Below, in pieces: positions 14,747 to 49,278 of a DNA stretch of 51,957 nucleotides. The notes beneath the pieces were generated by a model. The model did not search any database. It saw only the letters and a program-made list of their open reading frames with translations, and was not told the origin of the DNA. The DNA is taken from positions 1 to 51,957 of IMG/VR virus record IMGVR_UViG_3300045902_000726. The stretch is one strand, 5' to 3'. How positions within the stretch are numbered: position 1 is the stretch's first letter; each line of letters starts with the position of its first letter. A program made the position numbers and the translations under genes. This DNA comes from a virus.

Positions 14747-15217
14747 AAACTTTAGTTGATATCGAAAATATCGCAGAGGCGGCAAAACAGCTTGGTTTCT
14801 GGATGCACCTAGAGTCGTCCGGTTTTTGATTGGACGACTCTAGGCCTAAAAAGTTTAAATGGACATGCTTTTTCACGAGGTTAGGTGAGTCTGATGAGTA
14901 TGGAGCTAACTTTATGGGTCATGGAGATACCATTTACGAAGCCATTGATCAAGCATTTAATGATTTGAAAAAAAACAAGTGCGAGAAATATTTAAGGCTA
15001 GAAAATGCTATTAGTAACCCACAGTTTGAAAAGGCACAGCTAAACGGTTCTTACCTGCCAACCATTAGGGGCGATCGCATTTCAGCAATGCATAGGAAGG
15101 TTTGTAAGCCCCCAAGAGTTTTTGGATAGTCCGGCACTACAAGAACAAATCGCATCGTGCTATTGGGCGGATATTGAGGCGACAGTTAAGGCTGAAAGCA
15201 GTGACTCTCTCACTTAA
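14743..15217 (+). pseudogene. Interrupted gene: in-frame TGA, then probable frameshift
   Basis: An ATG at 14743, overlapping the previous stop, opens a 28-codon frame that ends at TGA 14827-14829. The same frame then runs on without another stop to 15129 (starting DDSRPKKFKWTC). Near 15044-15100 good protein-like sequence moves to the +1 frame (FVSPQEFLDSPALQEQ, ADIEATVKAESS) and ends at TAA 15215. The whole looks like one ~155-residue gene broken by a stop and a frameshift. Alternatives are programmed recoding, because the TGA sits in the loop of a strong hairpin, or two short real genes (14743-14829 and 14830-15129 from TTG). Confidence 0.45.
14808..14844. other. 13-bp hairpin enclosing the TGA codon
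   Basis: CCTAGAGTCGTCC (14808-14820) pairs perfectly with 14832-14844; the 11-base loop GGTTTTTGATT holds the in-frame TGA at 14827-14829. No T-run follows, so it is a poor terminator on the plus strand. Confidence 0.6.
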
Positions 15218-15235
15218 TAAAACAAGAGGTATTTA

Positions 15236-16003
15236 ATGGATAAGTATTTTCAAGTAAAAGTCATTTCTCAGACATCTAATCCTCAGCAGGTTATTTATTC
15301 AGCAGCGCATCAAGATTATTCCGAGGAGTTTGTGTGGAATGATCTGCAAATTGAAGATGGTCAAATCAACAAAAGTCGTTCAAACAAAGACGAACAAAGC
15401 AACGAAGCTCACTATGGTGAACTCATTGTCAAACACTTACTAGCAGGAAACCGAGGGCATTTTGGATGTCTAGAGCATCCACAAATTGTCCTCAACTGCG
15501 GATGGTTTCCCCACAGTACAATGCAGCAAATTCGGACTCATCGTGTAGGAATTTCGTTCGACTGTCAGAGTTTTAGGTACTCTGGCACCAGGATTTTAGA
15601 CGTTGTAGAGGGGAAACGGGGCATTGAAGAGGTATTCTATCTGCGACCATTGGGCACCTATAGCGATCGCCAAGGTAAACATTACGAATACACAACTGAA
15701 TTGCGCCAACAGGATTTAGATTGGTGTTTAGCCGCATGTCATCGTTACAAAGAGCGCATTGAACAAGGATTTTCAGAAGAACATGCACGGGGCTTAATTC
15801 CCTTTGATGTACGGCAACATTGGGTGATGTCAGCGAACGTGCGATCGCTCATGCATCTGTTAGATTTGCGGTGGAAGACGGACGCACAATTAGAGTGCCA
15901 GCAACTATGCGATCTGATTTGGCCTCATTTTGAAACGTGGGTACCTCAGATCGCCGAGTGGTATTTGAAGAACAGAGCTAAGAAGGCGAGACTCGCACCC
16001 TAG
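15236..16003 (+). CDS. thyX: Flavin-dependent thymidylate synthase ThyX
   Basis: A 255-residue ThyX, which makes dTMP from dUMP using FAD, methylene-tetrahydrofolate and NADPH. The signature RTHRVGISFDCQSFRYS (about residues 102-118) matches the ThyX motif RHRxxxSxNxxSxRY in its cyanobacterial form. EHARGLIPFDVRQHWVMSAN near 182-201 is the second conserved region. Length is usual for the family. AGAGG lies eight bases before the ATG. Together with the thymidylate kinase at 47346-47966 it would raise the TTP supply for phage DNA synthesis. Confidence 0.95.
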   Translation: MDKYFQVKVISQTSNPQQVIYSAAHQDYSEEFVWNDLQIEDGQINKSRSNKDEQSNEAHYGELIVKHLLAGNRGHFGCLEHPQIVLNCGWFPHSTMQQIRTHRVGISFDCQSFRYSGTRILDVVEGKRGIEEVFYLRPLGTYSDRQGKHYEYTTELRQQDLDWCLAACHRYKERIEQGFSEEHARGLIPFDVRQHWVMSANVRSLMHLLDLRWKTDAQLECQQLCDLIWPHFETWVPQIAEWYLKNRAKKARLAP

Positions 16004-16012
16004 CTCACCCAC

Positions 16013-16037
16013 AAAAAAAGAGGGGTGCTCACCCCTC
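16013..16037 (-). terminator. Terminator for the minus-strand nblA transcript
   Basis: On the minus strand GAGGGGTG (16037-16030) pairs with CACCCCTC (16027-16020), followed by seven T residues (16019-16013). It lies downstream of nblA; on the plus strand it is just after thyX and lacks a T-run. Confidence 0.7.
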
Positions 16038-16064
16038 CGCAGTCACCAAAAGCTATTTTTAAAA

Positions 16065-16114
16065 TGATAACATAAACTATCAGCAGTGTCATCCTATGAT
16101 AGTTTATGTTATTC
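16065..16114. promoter_or_regulatory. Pair of opposed operator-like sites between thyX and nblA
   Basis: TGATAACATAAACTATCA (16065-16082) and TGATAGTTTATGTTATTC (16097-16114) each fit TGATAR-N6-YTATYM, and together hold a perfect 16-bp inverted repeat (16067-16082 with 16097-16112). The site lies between two converging gene ends, where an operator is not expected. Confidence 0.5.
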
Positions 16115-16169
16115 TGATTCGTGCCAGTAGTGAAGGGCGATCGCGTGTGCAGATTGGCTTAAAACTGGC

Positions 16170-16541
16170 TTAAAATCCTACCTGCTTAATCAGCCTTCTA
16201 ATCTCATTGTCGGTCGCCAGAACCGAATGGGTTGTACTAAGCAACAGTGCGACCACGCTATCGACTGGCAATAGTGAAACCGATCCCCTAAGTGTTGATA
16301 GCTCTTGCTGTTGTTCTTCGGTCAACTCAGGGACTTTTAAGACATGGGCGATCGCCCCTGGCTTGCCAAATCTTTTTTCTAGAATGTGCCTATGGAATTC
16401 GGCAACATAGTTTTGCTTGGTGATCAGTATCTCGGTGGATTGCAAAAGGAGAGCGATCGCCTGTTTCCGTGTCATCCCTTTGGCGCTTTCAGTCATTAGC
16501 CGAAAGCTGAACTGTTGCTCTAGTGTGAGTTCGTTACTCAT
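16170..16541 (-). CDS. nblA: NblA-like phycobilisome degradation protein with C-terminal extension
   Basis: The first ~58 residues match NblA, the small helical adaptor that brings phycobilisomes to Clp protease: ELTLEQQFSFRLMTES, then MTRKQAIALLLQSTEIL, then TKQNYVAEFHRHILEKRFG. The family has LEQxFSLR, MSxEQAxxxLL and the RExMYxxLLK pattern at the same spacing. Known NblA proteins are about 60 residues; this one has 123, with an extra helical region from 60 onward. Some freshwater cyanophages (for example Ma-LMM01) carry nblA, thought to recycle light-harvesting protein during infection. AAGGAG lies upstream, and an operator (16572-16589) overlaps a TGCTATCAT promoter element, so expression is probably under repressor control. 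Confidence 0.85.
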   Translation of the reverse strand: MSNELTLEQQFSFRLMTESAKGMTRKQAIALLLQSTEILITKQNYVAEFHRHILEKRFGKPGAIAHVLKVPELTEEQQQELSTLRGSVSLLPVDSVVALLLSTTHSVLATDNEIRRLIKQVGF

Positions 16542-16571
16542 AGGGCGATCGCTCCTTTTAGGTTTTGCCTA

Positions 16572-16589
16572 TGATAGCAAAAACTATCA
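16572..16589 (-). promoter_or_regulatory. Operator TGATAG-N6-CTATCA over the nblA promoter
   Basis: TGATAGCAAAAACTATCA, perfect 6-bp arms. On the minus strand the sequence reads TGATAGTTTTTGCTATCAT; its right half gives TGCTATCAT, an extended -10 about 30 bases before the nblA start. Binding there would block transcription. Confidence 0.65.
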
Positions 16590-16609
16590 ATCCTGATCGT
16601 CCGTGATAG

Positions 16610-16897
16610 TTAATTATGATCCAGCCAATTCCCTGTCCCATCGGCAATCACCGTAGGAATTGTCTCGCCCGTCGCCAGGGCATTAAACCCAATATCCTGA
16701 GCAAAGGCGATCGCCCCATCGGGCAACACCAATTCGGTTAATCCCGTAGTCGCATCCCTTCCCGTTTTTTGAGCAAGGAGCGATCGCACTCCTGTTGATA
16801 TAGAGCGGGTGGTGAGGGTGGCGATCGCCTGGTACCGACGATCCTTTAGGACGTTAGAGATTAAAGTATTTTGATTGATTTCGGCTCTAGATGGCAT
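16610..16897 (-). CDS. Hypothetical protein, 95 aa, tail cluster
   Basis: Unrecognised. It begins PSRAEINQNTLISNVLKDRRYQAIATL and has a regular run of small and polar residues ending FNALATGETIPTVIADGTGNW, typical of phage structural accessory proteins. Its start overlaps the end of the 520-residue gene by 11 bases, so it is the last gene of the minus-strand tail operon that begins at 22804. Confidence 0.55.
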   Translation of the reverse strand: MPSRAEINQNTLISNVLKDRRYQAIATLTTRSISTGVRSLLAQKTGRDATTGLTELVLPDGAIAFAQDIGFNALATGETIPTVIADGTGNWLDHN

Positions 16898-18449
16898 AAC
16901 CTTTCACTGCCTCAATTCGTACAGCAATGCGATCGCAAAATCCTTGCCCAACCGGATCAAACTCTTCTGAGGAAAAGAATGTAGATACCGTGTCAATATT
17001 TACGCTTGATCTGATTAGTTCTGGTTCTCCATAAACCTCTGCCAACGTGTGCATCTCCGCCGAAAATGCCCTTAATCCAAACGAGTAATAAGTTGCTGGG
17101 ATTCCTGCGATCGCCCAATCATCCAGCCTTATTTGAAATGTTTGCGCTTCAATAAATTGGAACACGCCACCGACCGCACCTTTCCTATATAAATGAAATG
17201 TGCCATTAGAGAACAACGCTTGCGTATTCAGTGCTGGGAACGTGTTGATTAAACTGTCCCCAGCATCAGGAAACACAGGAACAAAGTTTGGTTCTGTTGT
17301 TACGGCAATAGGCGTTAAGGTGTTGTCATAATTAAGCATTCGATGTTGGTATGACGACCCAGCGCCAAAATCAGGAAACAAATCTGGTGTTGATGCGGCC
17401 GGGTTTGTTGCGGTAAGACTCCACACATCTTCGACCGCTTCGGGGATAACCGCTTGAGGCCAAAACGGCTGATCCTTTCTTGCGTACAATGGCGTGAGGT
17501 TGCTTGAGCTTGTGAACAATTCGTTCGCCGAATAATACTCTCTGAAATACGGTAACCAGTTGATATAGGGCAACAATTCAGGTGGGTATGGAGACGCGAA
17601 CGGAAAAGATGGCGCGACAAAAGTTGTCATTGGAGTAGCCCTAGTTCGTTCTCTTGGCAAATACCCCGAATCACCAGGGTTTCCGGCAGCATAGTTTGGA
17701 AAGCTTAAGTATTTTCGATGAATGAATGTGGACGACGACTCTCTGATCAAGTAGGTGTCGATGTACTGACGTTCCCCTGTTGATGAACTGCCGCCTTCTT
17801 CTTGTGGAAATTCACCAAACTGATAAAACGAGATTTGAGCGATCGCCAAACTTCCACTCAAGACAGAAAACGAATGCAGATAGGATCGGGTTGATAATGG
17901 GAGTGTAATAATCCCACTGCCAGACGATCCGGGTGGTGGAAAGTAACTGACAAATGCAGAATTCTCTGGCTGCCCTAACCCGTCCCCATTCTCGTAAACG
18001 TCGCAAATCAAAAAGGGCGATTGATTAGACCGCTTCATGTACCATCTAGCCCGACTTGCCCTAATAAAGTTTCCAATCTCAGGATCGCCAGGAACATCGA
18101 TTAACGAGAAAACTGCGCAAATTTCATAGCCACTAACAATCGATTCTTCCTGCGTTCTCAGGTTGCCGTAGTCAAGTGAATACAACCCACCCTCTAACGG
18201 AATCGCCCTAACTGGTGTCCCCGGTGGCAATGCTTGATTGAACGTTTTAATCCCAATCGGTAGCTCTACTCCGTCCTCATCAATCACGCCCCACAACCCG
18301 GTTATAGGATCGCGTGAGCCAATCCTAATTACCCGCCCTTGGCTGACGCTCTCGGTTAACGCACGGGCGATCGCCTCATCCTGCTGTTGCTGATTGGCGA
18401 TCGCCCATTGCGTCAATATTTGATTGTTCAGAGATTGGCGATCGCCCAT
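16887..18449 (-). CDS. Putative tail-tip or fibre protein, 520 aa
   Basis: A large, beta-rich protein without recognised motifs. The N-terminal ~90 residues (NQQQQDEAIARALTESV, then an SH3-like GLWGVIDEDGVELPIGI) could be an attachment domain. The rest is rich in S, P, G, Y and F with few charges, as in tail fibre and receptor-binding regions. It is translated after the 246-residue protein and before a 95-residue one. Placement downstream of the large tail protein suggests baseplate or fibre; this is inferred from position and composition. Confidence 0.6.
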   Translation of the reverse strand: MGDRQSLNNQILTQWAIANQQQQDEAIARALTESVSQGRVIRIGSRDPITGLWGVIDEDGVELPIGIKTFNQALPPGTPVRAIPLEGGLYSLDYGNLRTQEESIVSGYEICAVFSLIDVPGDPEIGNFIRASRARWYMKRSNQSPFLICDVYENGDGLGQPENSAFVSYFPPPGSSGSGIITLPLSTRSYLHSFSVLSGSLAIAQISFYQFGEFPQEEGGSSSTGERQYIDTYLIRESSSTFIHRKYLSFPNYAAGNPGDSGYLPRERTRATPMTTFVAPSFPFASPYPPELLPYINWLPYFREYYSANELFTSSSNLTPLYARKDQPFWPQAVIPEAVEDVWSLTATNPAASTPDLFPDFGAGSSYQHRMLNYDNTLTPIAVTTEPNFVPVFPDAGDSLINTFPALNTQALFSNGTFHLYRKGAVGGVFQFIEAQTFQIRLDDWAIAGIPATYYSFGLRAFSAEMHTLAEVYGEPELIRSSVNIDTVSTFFSSEEFDPVGQGFCDRIAVRIEAVKGYAI

Positions 18450-18451
18450 AT

Positions 18452-19192
18452 CTACCCGTTAAGAACCGATGGAGTGAGGTCAAGAACTCGTGATGCCCCA
18501 GCGTTGACCGTTTCCGTGCCAGAAAAGCGCCCAACACGAATTAGTGTTCCGGTTGTATCGAGTCTAGTTGTAGAACCGCCAGACAAAATCATCACAGCAG
18601 TGAACGAGATACCCGCGCCCCCTCCCGTGTTATTAAGAGTCGTGCTTAGAAGAATGCTGGCTCTCGATGCAGCCTCATCCTCTGTAATTGGAGTTGTGCC
18701 ACGATTGACCACAGGTCGGGTAGATAACCCCTGGTAAGAAGCAATCTCAAATTGTTGGATAATGATCGACTTACCAAGATCGCCTGTAACCGATGGCACA
18801 GACTTAAAGTTTGATATCGGAGAAGTGGCGTTAACAATCGGAAATGTTGCCAAGGTAAAAGAACCCGTAGCAACTGAGGTTAAGTCGATCGCCCCTCCAT
18901 TAAATGTTGATTCAAGTTCTACCGTGTTGGCATCTACTCGATTGACGTAGTAACTACTGCCAGATGTCAGACCGCCAATGGAACCCGATAATGCTGTGTA
19001 TAAAACAGGGATGCCATCAATAAACCCGTGAGACGTGATAGTGATGCGGTTAGTAGTTGTGTTGACATTGGCGTCAGTAAAGTTCTTGGTGATAGTGCTA
19101 TCATCCAGCAACACAACCTGCAAGTTCGTTGATGCAGGAACATCAGTATTCAAGTCTGCTGAAAGAGCGGGAAGCGTTAAACCGTTCGGCAT
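18452..19192 (-). CDS. Putative tail protein with NRITITSHG module, 246 aa
   Basis: Residues about 43-115 form a beta module: NTTTNRITITSHGF, SSYYVNRVDANTVEL, DLTSVATGSF. The same module occurs in the 34263-34913 protein (NTSTNRITITSHGY, YYCKVIDANTIEL, DISSVGSGA). The C-terminal half is Thr/Ser-rich and likely another beta structure. GAGGA lies upstream of the ATG. Minus-strand tail operon; probably a fibre or virion-surface protein, based on the shared module and context. Confidence 0.6.
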   Translation of the reverse strand: MPNGLTLPALSADLNTDVPASTNLQVVLLDDSTITKNFTDANVNTTTNRITITSHGFIDGIPVLYTALSGSIGGLTSGSSYYVNRVDANTVELESTFNGGAIDLTSVATGSFTLATFPIVNATSPISNFKSVPSVTGDLGKSIIIQQFEIASYQGLSTRPVVNRGTTPITEDEAASRASILLSTTLNNTGGGAGISFTAVMILSGGSTTRLDTTGTLIRVGRFSGTETVNAGASRVLDLTPSVLNG

Positions 19193-19222
19193 AGTATTGT
19201 CCTCTTGTCTAATAAATCTTAT

Positions 19223-22200
19223 CTAATTGATTTGCACAGCAAGTTTGGCGACTACGCTAGACAGTCCGCTAGCGCTAGCTGATGACCAGGTAAGCCCTTG
19301 GTCTGTTGACTGGCAGGTTTGCCCGGTGTGGTCTACCAGTGTCAGTAAATTACGATTACCTACAATCGCCCGGTAACTGGTGTTGCCCAATGGCTGACCA
19401 ATGCTTGTCCAGTTGACTCCACCGTCAGTTGTGCGCCATACCGCCCCGTTAGTTGTCGCAGAACCATGTACCGCTAACCACACATCGTCTTGCACCCACT
19501 TAACCGCCCAAATCGTTAGTGTTGCCGATCCGCTTGGAAACACTTCTGACCACAAAGTTCCATCGTTTGTTGTGTAAGAAATTCGTCCAGACGTTGTGCC
19601 AACCATCCAGCGTCCATTGCCAAACCCGACCGATTCAGCGACACGAGAAGATACACTGAAATTTGTCACCGTATTAAATGAGGCTGCGCTATCGCTTGAT
19701 AATGCCGCGTAAGATGCCGACCCGGCAATCATCACTTTTCCGGCGTCATTATCCGCCGCACCAAAAATATTGCCCGGTGTGCCAGGAGCAGTGATAGTGC
19801 TGTAACTAACCCCGTTGTTTATTGTTCGTCTCAGGTAGCCAGACTGCCCGGTGATCAGCCAGATGTTTCCGGTAATGTGAACCACCTCGTTAGTGTTGAA
19901 CACTGAACCACCTGCGTTAACTTGCGTCCACGAAGAGAGGTTCGACACATCCGCATAAGCGGTCGCATTGTTGTTGCTCCCTGCGATGATCACTCGTCCT
20001 GATGGGCTGACATCCACACATTGAGCGGTTGCCGGGAATGCAAGGGGATTACTAAAGGTTGTGTAAGCTCCTGTTCCTGATAGCGAGTACCCCTGATTGG
20101 TTGAGTTGCTGATCATTACATAGGTGCCAATCGTCGGAATGATAGACGCACCTAACGCCATATCCATGCCTACCTTCTTACGTGCGGCGATCGCATAATT
20201 AACAGGGACATTTGCGGTCATGCCTACCTTTTTGGGCAACTCAACATTTAAGTGAGTGATCATCTCAATGCCCAATTTTTTAGGTAGTTCTAACTGTGTT
20301 CGCGTACCCAGCGAAAGACCGATCTCTTTGGGTAAATCAATCTGCACTGGAGCATTTGAACCAACAATAAACTCAATAACTTTGGGTAACTGAATAGACG
20401 CCGGGGTTTGAACACTTGCTGTAATCCCTGCCGTTTTAGGGAGGGCAATTGCGATTGGCGTCTGCACTGCCAGACTTACCCCAATGACTTTAGGAAGGTT
20501 TAGCTGAATCTTGCTAATCAGTTCAACGCCTACGACTTTAAGCAAGGCGATCGCAATTCTCCGGCTAGTTCCCAATTCAAACGAGAATATCTTGGGCAGG
20601 TCAATCTTAATTTTCCTGGATGCCGTAGGAGAGGCGATCGCCTTCGCCTGCACCGTAATATCAAAACTCGTGTCAGCCGTGTCTAGAGCATCGTCCGTCA
20701 CCATTGCCGTAACAGTAAATGTTCCTGATGCAGTCGGTGTTCCTGAAATCTCGCCACCCGATAAAGTAAGTCCCGTAGGTAACCCCGATACTGAAAAGCC
20801 ATAAGGCGGTGTGCCTCCGGCTGCCCTTAACCGGATGACGGGCGATCGCTTCCCCTGTGTCCTGAGTTTGTTGCGGATAGGGGCGATCGCCAGTGCCCCA
20901 TCACTCACCGGTACCGGTTCAGATTCAATGACGAGAGGGTTCAATAGTGTGGCGGCTTGGTTGCCCGAAAAGAATAATCCTAGCTGGCGATCACTTGCGG
21001 AATAAGCGACTGAAAAAGCATCAGTTACTAAGCGCCATCGGTACACGTCCACAACTCGGAACAGGTGATAGTTCTGGACTGTGTCGAGATCAACGGGCAT
21101 ACTGATAGACCTTGCGTACCGTTTGCCCCATAATGCCGCTAATAACGTCTCGCCAAGCTGTTGCGCCTGATAATCAGTGGTTACGTGTTTAGCCGTTACA
21201 TACAGATTCTTTTCCTCTTCAGTAGTTGGATCGAAACTGGGCACCGTCTCAATTTGCTGAGATGTTGTTTTGGGTTTGACTGCCTGATCTCTTTCCTTAT
21301 AGGGTGGGTCGGGGATGCCCTCGATAATTTGAATTGAAGTGCGATCGCTTTGCAGTTGTTCGGTAACGCTATAGTCATCGATGCCCAAAACCGCTTTGTA
21401 ATATTCAGTTTTTTGAACAACCGTTTCGCAACCCCGAATCTGCCAGTTCGTAACTTCACTTTCGAGAAACAGGAACGCCCCCGGCGCGTTTTCGTCAGCA
21501 AATAGAAATTTTCCGTTTTGGGTAGTGCGGACGCTGTACTGCCGCTGCCGACCGTCGCCAAAGTACAACCATTGCTCAGTAGTGATCTTGGATAACTCTT
21601 GACTCTGATCGCTGGGATAGAGCGATGGTGCTGCAACTCCCCTGGGTTCAGTGAGTCTCGTTATCTTGGTTAACGGCTTACCTTGGGAATCGTAACTGGT
21701 TTGTTCGACCTTGCTGTATTCAGTGACCAACCCCTTACCCGCATCTGGATCGCCGAACAGGGCTTTTGCTTGGGTGCGTTTTCTGGTCACAATCAGCGCT
21801 GCCGTCACCCCCACGACAATTGAATCTGTCGTCTCGATAGACAACAGATCGCCATCTTCATCAAACGTTTCGACCGGAGGCGGCAAGCCCACGCCACAAT
21901 TTTCAGGATCCGGGGGTGAACCAAACACCCCATCCTGATCGACAGAGTCTTGTGTCGGGGATAACTCTAAAGTTCGCCCCGTGACCCGAATTGTTTTGGG
22001 TGGAACAAGTGCCCCTACCTGTCCCGTGGCAATATCCTGCCGATCAAAACTTTCGATTTCTTGCAGGTAGTATTCAGTTTCAGCTTCATCAGGGTTGACG
22101 GGGTACTTGCTGAACTCCACAACGCCTAACCGAGCGTCTAACCAATAACCATGTGAGGCGGCAATGTCAGACGCATACTGCACTGGGTTCTTAGGTTTTT

Positions 22201-31774: not shown

Positions 31775-31993
31775 ATGCAAGAAATAAACAAAGGTCGGTA
31801 TACCCCGCAATTTAGAGAGAAATCTTTTACTGCGCCCGATCTCCCATTAGGAACTCTGGCAAAAAAAACAATTGGGTTAAGGCTCCCTGTCGAGCACGAC
31901 CGAATCGTTCGGAGCATCCCGGACATGCAGGTCTGGTTAAGGCGTGTAGTCCGGGATGCTCTTATCAAAGATGGCCTTATAGGGGATCGATAA
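31775..31993 (+). CDS. Hypothetical protein, 72 aa, possible regulator
   Basis: ATG at 31775 with GGAGG about twelve bases upstream. Basic N-terminus, then LPLGTLAKKTIGLRLPVEHD and a C-terminal helix (DMQVWLRRVVRDALIKDGL). The strand TIGLRLP followed by two helices resembles a short ribbon-helix-helix fold. It is flanked by the GCGGTTAACCGC operators, so autoregulation is possible. Its end overlaps the convergent sigma factor gene by 57 bases. Confidence 0.55.
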   Translation: MQEINKGRYTPQFREKSFTAPDLPLGTLAKKTIGLRLPVEHDRIVRSIPDMQVWLRRVVRDALIKDGLIGDR

Positions 31994-33229
31994 ATGAGAC
32001 CCAGCAAGGGAAGATTCAGGAGCAGGTAAATCGCTAAAAATATCCACGTTTGCTGCTCGTCTTAATTTGCGAGTGGCAGCCACCTGAATCTGTCGAATTC
32101 GTTTACTAGATAGGTTAAGCGATCGCCCAATTTTTGCTAACGTTTCCGGGCGATCGCACCCAATCCCATAGCTTCTTTCTATCACCATCCTTTCCCGTGG
32201 TGATAAATGTTCAAGTAACTCTTCCACCATCAACTCACCCAGGCCATCACCAATCATGTATTCGGGATTGACCGGTGAATCGGCAATGAGATCCATTAAC
32301 TCGTGATCCTTTTCACCTCCCACCCCGCGATTAAGTGAGGTGGGCTTCATCGTTTGATGCAAGATATCTTGCACCTTAGAGCGCCATCCCAGATGTGCTT
32401 CAATTTCTTGGGGTGAGGGCGATCGCCCCAATTTTTGCTCTAGTTTTTCTGTCGCAATTTTAATCTCAGATGCTTTAGTAAGCATCTGAGATGACATACC
32501 GTTCTTCCAGCCTAGGGAAGCATCCAATTCTCGCATAAGGGGCGATCGCCCGTTTTGCTCGGTCAGTTCAATCTTTTTAGCTTTAACTAGCTCTTCTCGC
32601 TCCAACACCGAGCTTACGGAATAATCCCACCCGAGATATTGTTCAATCTCAATGATGGAGGGCGATCGCCCGTTTTGCTGTGCTAAAATTTGACGCGCCT
32701 TTTTGATCCGGTTCATCTTGTCCACAATATGGATGGGAATCCTGATTGTCCTGGCTTTATTATCGATGCCTCGAACAATGGATTGGCGTATCCACCAATA
32801 AGCATAGGTAGAGAATTTGTAACCTTTACTGGGGTCAAATTTAAGAACCGATGTGTGCAAACCTATAGAGCCTTCCTGAATCAGGTCTTGTAACTCCATC
32901 CCTCGGTTCTGGTACTTTTTGGCAACTGATACTACCAGACGTAGGTTAGCCTGCATCATGCGCTGGTGTGCGCGCATTCCACGGACTATCGCTCTTTTGA
33001 GTTCATCGAGCGATAGTCCAGCAAGGTTAGATAGTTCGGAGTCGAGGGGCGATCGTTTTTTCGCCTTAATAAATTTTTCCTTAGCCTTCTCGATAGCCTG
33101 CCATTTTTGAACCTGAGTAGCCAGATCTTTCTCCTGATCGGCTGACAGTAAAGGGTATCGTCCAATGCTGCGGAGATAGGTCTGGATTGAGTCTTTTGCC
33201 ATAGGGGAGGGAGTGGTTGCGTGAGACAT
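31937..33229 (-). CDS. Sigma-70 family factor with triplicated region-3 module
   Basis: A 430-residue phage-borne sigma factor. Region 1.2 lies near residues 13-40 (DSIQTYLRSIGRYPLLS). Region 2 lies near 94-160 (ANLRLVVSVAKKYQNRG, LQDLIQEGSIGL, FDPSKGYKFSTYAYWWIRQS), all as in RpoD group 1/2. Region 4 lies near 338-392 (LSPRERMVIERSYGI, ETLAKIGRSLNLSSKRIRQI). Between them, instead of one region 3, are three ~40-residue copies of a GRSPxxxEIexxLGW unit, at 177-210, 217-251 and 258-290. Each GRSP is coded by a HIP1 octamer. It would redirect host RNA polymerase, probably to phage late genes. Two operators lie immediately upstream. Confidence 0.9.
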   Translation of the reverse strand: MSHATTPSPMAKDSIQTYLRSIGRYPLLSADQEKDLATQVQKWQAIEKAKEKFIKAKKRSPLDSELSNLAGLSLDELKRAIVRGMRAHQRMMQANLRLVVSVAKKYQNRGMELQDLIQEGSIGLHTSVLKFDPSKGYKFSTYAYWWIRQSIVRGIDNKARTIRIPIHIVDKMNRIKKARQILAQQNGRSPSIIEIEQYLGWDYSVSSVLEREELVKAKKIELTEQNGRSPLMRELDASLGWKNGMSSQMLTKASEIKIATEKLEQKLGRSPSPQEIEAHLGWRSKVQDILHQTMKPTSLNRGVGGEKDHELMDLIADSPVNPEYMIGDGLGELMVEELLEHLSPRERMVIERSYGIGCDRPETLAKIGRSLNLSSKRIRQIQVAATRKLRRAANVDIFSDLPAPESSLAGSHLSIPYKAIFDKSIPDYTP

Positions 33230-34262: not shown

Positions 34263-34913
34263 TTAGTAATTAGAGATTGATAATGAGCCAATCGGAACCG
34301 TTAGGGTGATGTCGGCAGCGTCCACCAGCCGAGACTGAACCTTAAATAACAACTGTGCCCCTGACCCAACTGAGGAAATATCCACAATCGTCGTCAAAGC
34401 TTGATCGGTATACAGTTCAATCGTGTTGGCGTCGATAACCTTGCAGTAGTATCGAGTCTCGGCAGTGACACCGCCCATCAGAGTGGAGTTGGAACCAAAG
34501 GGCAGGCGCAACACTACCTCGTTAGCATCGCTATACCCGTGACTTGTGATGGTGATCCGATTGGTGCTGGTATTGATGTCGGCTGGTAGAATTTGCTTCT
34601 CAGTTTCTTTGCCTAGCCAATCCCAGTAACGAGGGCTGCCGCCGGATGATGCGCCGAACTCTCCCCAGTGTGTAATACGGGATAAAGACCATGCCCCGGT
34701 AGATTGGCTGGTCACAACTGCGCTTGTATTTGTGCGACCAAAGCTTGACCATGATCCGAACGTCGCTGCCGTTCTCGCATAGCCACCCGTCGAGGGTTCA
34801 GTAAAGTTGGTTAGCGATCCACCGGACGCCGCCGGAGTTGTGGTACTAAACCCGACGAACGAAGTGTTTAGGTTAGCAAGAATTGTAGTAGAAAATTCAG
34901 GACTAGTAGGCAC
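34263..34913 (-). CDS. Putative tail protein with NRITITSHG module, 216 aa
   Basis: GTG start with GGAG about eleven bases upstream. N-terminal half is rich in S, T, G and A. Residues about 117-195 carry the module NTSTNRITITSHGY, TRYYCKVIDANTIELYTD, DISSVGSGAQLLF, shared with the 18452-19192 protein. Two tail operons thus share a domain, as in proteins that assemble on the same surface. Exact role unknown. Confidence 0.6.
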   Translation of the reverse strand: MPTSPEFSTTILANLNTSFVGFSTTTPAASGGSLTNFTEPSTGGYARTAATFGSWSSFGRTNTSAVVTSQSTGAWSLSRITHWGEFGASSGGSPRYWDWLGKETEKQILPADINTSTNRITITSHGYSDANEVVLRLPFGSNSTLMGGVTAETRYYCKVIDANTIELYTDQALTTIVDISSVGSGAQLLFKVQSRLVDAADITLTVPIGSLSISNY

Positions 34914-48326: not shown

Positions 48327-48608
48327 ATGCTCTCTAAGTTCCAAGCATTGCTCACCTCCGGACAGTTTGAGCTTCTCACCCACGGCAACACGTTTACAGA
48401 AGAAGGCGATCGCCTCACCATTCACACTACCCAATGGATTGGTTTTGCGATCGCCCGTCTTGCTAAGGTTTATCTAGACACCGCTCAGCAAATAGGGGTC
48501 ACCCTCTACTTACAGGCTGGCGACAAAAAAGCGGTTAAGCTAGCTCCATTATCTGACAGTCGCATTCTTGCAATAGTTGCGCCAGAAGGTCATGCGATCG
48601 CCCGGTAG
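48327..48608 (+). CDS. Hypothetical protein, 93 aa
   Basis: AAGGA lies about eight bases before the ATG. LSKFQALLTSGQFELLTHGN, RLTIHTTQWIGFAIARLAKV, then SDSRILAIVAPEGHAIAR. No family recognised. It converges with, and overlaps by 74 bases, the repressor gene, which suggests mutual interference of the two transcripts. Confidence 0.55.
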   Translation: MLSKFQALLTSGQFELLTHGNTFTEEGDRLTIHTTQWIGFAIARLAKVYLDTAQQIGVTLYLQAGDKKAVKLAPLSDSRILAIVAPEGHAIAR

Positions 48609-49179
48609 CGGCTGCAATTGCCTCAACCTCATCAGCCCCAACCTCGTCTACACCATTCATAATTTCCCGGAATCTTTTAGCAGAGATTTCGGGAATCGTT
48701 TTTTCTAAAGGGTTTTTGTCGAACCAGTCACGGGCGATCGCCCCCAAAACTGCACACTTTGATTGAGATAATCGTGCGTCATCTTCCATTTTATTGATGC
48801 CAAGTTTTATTAGTGCACTAAGATAGCCTGATGGTAGATAGGTGATGAAATCTTTAGGCGATAGCACTCGAATCATCGCCCCTATAACTTTTTCAATAAA
48901 TGGGCGATCGCCCCTCTTGATCAGCAGTAAAGCTTTATCGTGTGGCATTAGGGTTTCATCCATCAGCCACGCATAGACTTCAGCCCCGGAGGTTCCCCGT
49001 GCTCCGCCAATCCCTTGCACGACTTCTAGAGAAGGATAGCCTGTCTTGCCTGTCAGCAGGTTGTAGATTGTCGGTTGGGATACGCCTACACGACGCGCCA
49101 TCTCGTGACTCGACCAGCCTTGTTCTTTCTGCCATTCGGTAAGTTTTTCTGCGATCGTCTGTTGCTTAAGCGTGTCCAT
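48535..49179 (-). CDS. XRE-family repressor-like protein, 214 aa
   Basis: N-terminal Cro/CI-type helix-turn-helix at about 8-60: AEKLTEWQKEQGWSSHEMAR, VGVSQPTIYNLLTGKTGYPS. The rest is helical. A second HTH-like segment may lie near the end (EVGADEVEAIAAATGRS). There is no Ser/Lys LexA-type self-cleavage motif that I can see. It is the best candidate to bind TGATAG-N6-CTATCA: two such sites lie just upstream of its own start, as expected for autoregulation. It would then repress nblA, the ruvC-like gene and the sigma factor. Confidence 0.75.
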   Translation of the reverse strand: MDTLKQQTIAEKLTEWQKEQGWSSHEMARRVGVSQPTIYNLLTGKTGYPSLEVVQGIGGARGTSGAEVYAWLMDETLMPHDKALLLIKRGDRPFIEKVIGAMIRVLSPKDFITYLPSGYLSALIKLGINKMEDDARLSQSKCAVLGAIARDWFDKNPLEKTIPEISAKRFREIMNGVDEVGADEVEAIAAATGRSHDLLAQLLQECDCQIMELA

Positions 49180-49184
49180 TTTTT

Positions 49185-49278
49185 TGATAGGTTTAACTAT
49201 CGCGACTCTATCAAAAAATACTCACACTGGGAATAGACAGCGGAAAACAACCCTATACTGTGATAGTTAAAGCTATTA
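49185..49278. promoter_or_regulatory. Operators in the repressor control region
   Basis: TGATAG-N6-CTATCG at 49185-49202 and TGATAG-N6-CTATTA at 49261-49278. The first begins six bases before the repressor ATG. A wider inverted repeat TTTTTTTGATAG / CTATCAAAAAAT (49179-49219) overlaps it. Confidence 0.65.

Follow-up and report, generated by a model that had tools for sequence, protein, structure and literature searches.

An in-frame NblA1-NblA2 fusion on a phage contig, probably a single-chain counterpart of the cyanobacterial heterodimer

NblA in its usual form is a protein of about 60 residues with one domain, whereas an open reading frame in a viral DNA record encodes an NblA-like protein of 123 residues with two (the Pfam family itself sets no such limit), and the question that this locus raises is what the second half of the protein is and how it came to be there. 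The DNA, a stretch of 51,957 nucleotides called the window below, is a metagenomic contig with genes for terminase, portal, tape measure, sigma factor and replication. The earlier note on it had read residues 1-58 as following the NblA pattern, and the ~65 residues behind them as an extension that may add a new target or a Clp contact. The gene and its parts are as follows.

16170-16541, minus strand: nblA1::nblA2 fusion gene, 123 aa, ATG start (open reading frame; PF04485 58.4 bits; tandem profile)
16552-16557, minus strand: ribosome-binding site AAGGAG (sequence)
16389-16532, minus strand: NblA domain 1 (residues 4-51), NblA1 type, ELTLEQQF retained (PF04485 46.2 bits)
16329-16367, minus strand: linker, residues 59-71 GKPGAIAHVLKVP, with the GCGATCGC octamer inside (sequence; low pLDDT at 61-70)
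16182-16328, minus strand: NblA domain 2 (residues 72-120), NblA2 type, more diverged, DN-IR-L-K retained (PF04485 18.3 bits, E 1.9e-4)

The first part of the earlier reading was borne out, since the whole protein matches PF04485 over residues 4-51 (E 9.5e-16, 58.4 bits, cut-off 25). A six-frame search with this profile gives two matches in one open frame, each spanning nearly all of its 50 positions; domain 2 by itself is under the cut-off (18.3 vs 25 bits), and the NCBIfam NblA equivalog NF045916 is matched at 17.4 bits against a cut-off of 100. The halves align to each other ungapped with a period of 68 residues and a score of 50 (2 of 20,000 shuffles are as good), and at every other ungapped self-alignment offset from 40 to 89 the score is at most 18. 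ELTLEQQF is intact in the N-terminal half and its C-terminal counterpart is ELTEEQQQ, the Phe being lost; D111, N112, I114, R115, L117 and K119 are retained in the C-terminal half. The ~65-residue extension is itself an NblA, diverged and of the NblA2 type, in frame behind an NblA1-type domain. Where a new target or Clp contact had been supposed, we find the second PF04485 match and the internal repeat of 68 residues.

Each half is predicted to be a helix-loop-helix NblA unit. AlphaFold2 with a seven-row alignment (pLDDT 87, pTM 0.79) gives the hairpins H7-20/H25-58 and H75-88/H93-121, so that the extension is modelled as a second NblA-type hairpin and not as a new module. This model depends on the tandem hypothesis because the rows take in host gene pairs, with their stop codon read as a residue, whereas the model from the single sequence is independent of it and has main helices that begin at residues 7 and 25 and, 68 residues on, at 75 and 93. 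Searches with both models (Foldseek, VIA-align) returned generic helical bundles only (E >= 0.77 or Z <= 8.2), a result in which the absence of NblA is not counted as evidence. By sequence, the tandem profile and the fusion match the solved NblA structures 2q8v, 2qdo and 1ojh. The likeness to solved NblA (PDB 1ojh, 2q8v, 2qdo, 3cs5) lies in the helix-loop-helix unit, predicted in the phage protein, and in the sequence match to the tandem profile; the phage protein differs in having the partner unit in its own chain. Crystallised NblA forms four-helix bundles of dimers (PMC7966870).

Adjacent nblA1-nblA2 pairs are present in many cyanobacterial genomes, and a scan of genome contigs found one locus, L008 (Leptolyngbyaceae SL_7_1), that matches residues 2-123 of the phage protein. 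We rejected L008 as a fusion, as it consists of two adjoining genes that share a frame and are separated by a single TAA. The distance from motif to motif in the phage gene is 68 codons, or 204 nt, and in the in-frame pairs parted by one TAA it is 201 nt (L008) or 204 nt (L056 and L046); other host pairs are out of frame, with 202, 203, 218, 242 or 278 nt between motifs. Such tight-gap pairs, with a spacing of ~201-204 nt, recur across separate genomes (L056, L046, L008 and others), and the frame is kept in some.

To compare each half with the classes of host genes, we used profiles of first genes (NblA1), second genes (NblA2) and canonical NblA, with the phage left out. The first unit is NblA1-like (NblA1 56.7 bits, NblA2 34.7, canonical 35.4) and the second NblA2-like (NblA1 15.3 bits, NblA2 30.0, canonical 2.0), against a background of 11.7 bits as the highest score among 2,000 shuffles per half. 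In a tree of 49 columns, which is too short to fix the exact place of either half, canonical NblA forms a separate clade (100/100), with the phage halves and the paired genes outside it; the branch of the C-terminal half has ~3 changes per site. Because the order of the units, the class of each half and the spacing all fit an nblA1-nblA2 pair, the gene most likely arose from such a pair by loss of a stop codon. The weak PF04485 score of the C-terminal half (18 bits) and its great divergence could also be explained if a phage NblA had been duplicated within the phage, so that the N-terminal half alone works, as a homodimer, and the C-terminal copy is decaying or linker-like. We regard this as unlikely, because a recent duplication of the N-terminal half is disfavoured by the best score of the C-terminal half being to NblA2 rather than to NblA1 or canonical NblA, because this half retains columns in common with the host pairs (E72, L73, E76, Q77, Q78, L84, L100, D111, N112, I114, R115 and L117), and because order and spacing fit the host gene pairs.

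The origin from a host gene pair raises the matter of whether the fusion is real, since the contig is metagenomic and one stop codon is the difference between host pairs and a fusion, and an assembly or sequencing error might have erased the stop between separate phage genes nblA1 and nblA2. The linker codons are GGC AAG CCA GGG GCG ATC GCC CAT GTC TTA AAA GTC CCT GAG TTG, which in frame contain neither ATG nor GTG, and the sole TTG falls within the motif; the single ATG in this stretch is out of frame and meets a TAA one codon on. Where a start codon of the second unit would be expected there is none, and the unit has no ribosome-binding site either. Two translatable genes cannot be obtained by a single-base error, because the linker lacks both an in-frame start and a ribosome-binding site, so that errors at more than one base would be needed, and we consider an error of this kind very improbable. 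The tandem NblA1-NblA2 profile matches the window without a stop over positions 4-125 at 166.5 bits, the window itself being one of the seven rows of that profile. Where an NblA1/NblA2 pair is two separate genes, we find one open frame with no internal stop and no usable second start. The identity of the parts, an NblA1 and an NblA2 unit fused in one chain, is well supported.

The fusion was found on one contig. Each of 73 other viral NblA loci in IMG/VR has one NblA open reading frame of 59-89 aa with a single domain, so that the doubled length proposed earlier holds, and the canonical profile gives the best score for 73 of 73. Phage NblA (Ma-LMM01, PaV-LD, MaMV-DC, S-SCSM1 and the 73 IMG/VR loci) resembles the fusion as a PF04485 adaptor on a cyanophage, but the 73 loci are of single-domain, canonical class whereas the fusion is of two domains and of NblA1/NblA2 type. 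Searches of four overlapping cyanobacterial samples (386, 36, 388 and 388 genomes) with the tandem profile found pairs in which, among the matches listed, every one that spanned both units contained a stop, and no fusion; a scan of viral contigs with the tandem alignment found only a single-domain NblA, and an NblA2-led scan of viral contigs found nothing. There were no close protein relatives of the fusion in GenBank phages, viral contigs or genome contigs, GenBank phages showed no DNA similarity to 15000-22000, and NblA was present in none of 31 terminase-related viral contigs. The part of the literature that was searched contained no account of a phage NblA fusion. The novelty is the two-domain NblA1::NblA2 chain, NblA itself, cellular or phage-borne, being already known, and because the fusion is known from one contig, a lineage-wide role cannot be claimed for it.

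The neighbours of the gene are thyX, convergent on it, on one side and tail-type genes on the other. Two minus-strand genes, at 18452-19192 and 34263-34913, match the same baseplate/tail PHROG families (phrog_2885, phrog_4711), which suggests a duplicated tail module. The elements that may bear on the control of the fusion gene are the following.

16572-16589, no strand: exact operator TGATAG-N6-CTATCA (motif scan)
16571-16579, minus strand: extended -10-like TGCTATCAT (TGC-TATCAT), overlapping the operator, candidate promoter (sequence)
16604-16611, no strand: one half-site, TGATAGTT, at 32 bp from the start of the operator, in a second site that is otherwise degenerate (motif scan)
16065-16114, no strand: further pair of operators with 32 bp between their starts, containing a perfect inverted repeat of 16 bp (downstream of the fusion gene)
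48535-49179, minus strand: candidate cognate repressor, HTH_31/HTH_3 (Pfam HTH_31 44.4 bits; PHROG repressor families)
49185-49202, no strand: operator with 1 mismatch, immediately upstream of the repressor start (motif scan)
49261-49278, no strand: operator with 1 mismatch, upstream of the repressor (motif scan)

The exact site upstream of the fusion gene, which the earlier note had pointed out, is a member of a phage-wide set of 18 sites with at most 2 mismatches, against 1.7 expected in the window (none of 100 shuffles reaches 18). Most of the 18 are intergenic in the list of open reading frames, and some lie within them, such as the 769/801 pair in a helicase-like frame. In six distinct pairs the starts are separated by exactly 32 bp, or about three turns of the helix (769/801, 6161/6193, 16065/16097, 25467/25499, 33241/33273 and 47294/47326), where other spacings average 0.09, and this suggests cooperative binding by a phage repressor. 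In the gap where thyX and the fusion gene converge, the pair at 16065-16114 is accompanied by a promoter-like match at 16092-16064 (minus strand) and has no obvious gene to control.

The operator is common to the upstream regions of the fusion gene (16572) and of the repressor gene (49185 and 49261), and judging by this distribution of sites the HTH repressor of the phage probably controls the fusion gene. An autoregulated repressor with a regulon would fit, because sites lie directly upstream of both the HTH gene and a sigma-factor-like gene (31937-33229, with the pair 33241/33273 directly upstream of its start), and the latter may serve as a lytic switch governed by that repressor. An integrase was not recognised in any of the proteins scanned, and for this reason the repressor is the one element that speaks for lysogeny. 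The proposal that the fusion gene has a repressor-controlled promoter, with the site overlapping its -10, can be kept in part. A repressor-type operator is there and the -10-like TGC-TATCAT overlaps it, but the promoter scan did not call this match and found no convincing -35 at the operator, and the overlap is thus plausible rather than established, with repression deduced from the distribution of the sites. An NtcA box (GTA-N8-TAC) was looked for within 200 bp upstream of the fusion gene and is absent, and NtcA control was rejected on this ground.

Comparison with the cellular nblA1-nblA2 of Synechocystis PCC 6803 shows two NblA units in the same order, with the class of each half and, in several genomes with such pairs, the spacing of 201-204 nt in agreement. 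The phage encodes them as one polypeptide where Synechocystis PCC 6803 has two, the N-terminal motif of its second unit is altered, and its gene has a phage-type operator upstream and no NtcA box found. PMC12638213 (citing Baier 2014) reports that in Synechocystis phycobilisomes are acted on by the NblA1/NblA2 heterodimer, which delivers them to ClpCP, and Baier et al. 2014 is also cited for the heterodimer in PMC7966870. In NblA an N-terminal motif binds ClpC and a C-terminal motif binds phycobiliproteins (PMC4103541). In our own alignment, the positions of Leu51 and Lys53 of Anabaena NblA are occupied by F49 and R51 in the N-terminal half and by L117 and K119 in the C-terminal half. These two Anabaena residues are important for binding to the phycobilisome.

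With a probability of roughly 0.7, we read the gene as an in-frame nblA1-nblA2 fusion captured by a phage, whose product corresponds to the NblA1/NblA2 heterodimer in a single chain, acting as an adaptor between phycobilisomes and ClpC-ClpP and held by a repressor. A cyanobacterial nblA1-nblA2 pair would have been captured, and the fusion would have formed when the stop codon between the genes and the second start codon were lost. The two helix-loop-helix units would then make the NblA dimer bundle inside one polypeptide, with the ratio of the units fixed at 1:1 and no need for a host partner. This adaptor would bridge phycobilisomes to ClpC-ClpP, mimicking the heterodimer and leading to bleaching in the lytic phase or after induction, with the HTH repressor at TGATAG-N6-CTATCA keeping transcription off until then and host nitrogen control not being the driver.

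The two halves look specialised, as ELTLEQQF in the N-terminal half may be the ClpC-side region and the DN-IR-L-K helix of the C-terminal half the phycobiliprotein-side region, which suggests a division of labour. In its strongest form, this would be an obligate asymmetric adaptor, with the N-unit as the only ClpC contact and the C-unit mainly as the phycobilisome contact, so that one phage protein could turn on antenna degradation without host NblA or nitrogen signals; we offer this tentatively, at somewhat less than even odds. The C-terminal half could also be a structural remnant, given its strong divergence, its PF04485 score under the cut-off and its changed ClpC-side motif. The loss of the Phe, which would leave a dimer with one ClpC motif, would also suit a protein of opposite effect that pairs or competes with host NblA and so shields phycobilisomes during infection or lysogeny. 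Such a role is improbable, as the N-terminal half has kept its motif, known phage NblA leads to a loss of phycobilin on expression in cyanobacteria (PMC9602691), and the operator suggests that the gene is silent in a lysogen, when protection would count most.

Under the reading as a single-chain heterodimer, the gene would provide a naturally tethered form of a dimer that is reported to be essential, when paired, for phycobilisome degradation in Synechocystis. With this single protein one can ask directly if the heterodimer suffices, and which of the halves touches ClpC and which one touches the antenna. The finding indicates that the canonical nblA, to which every other viral copy found here belongs, is not the one source from which phages can draw NblA, the nblA1/nblA2 pair being a second.
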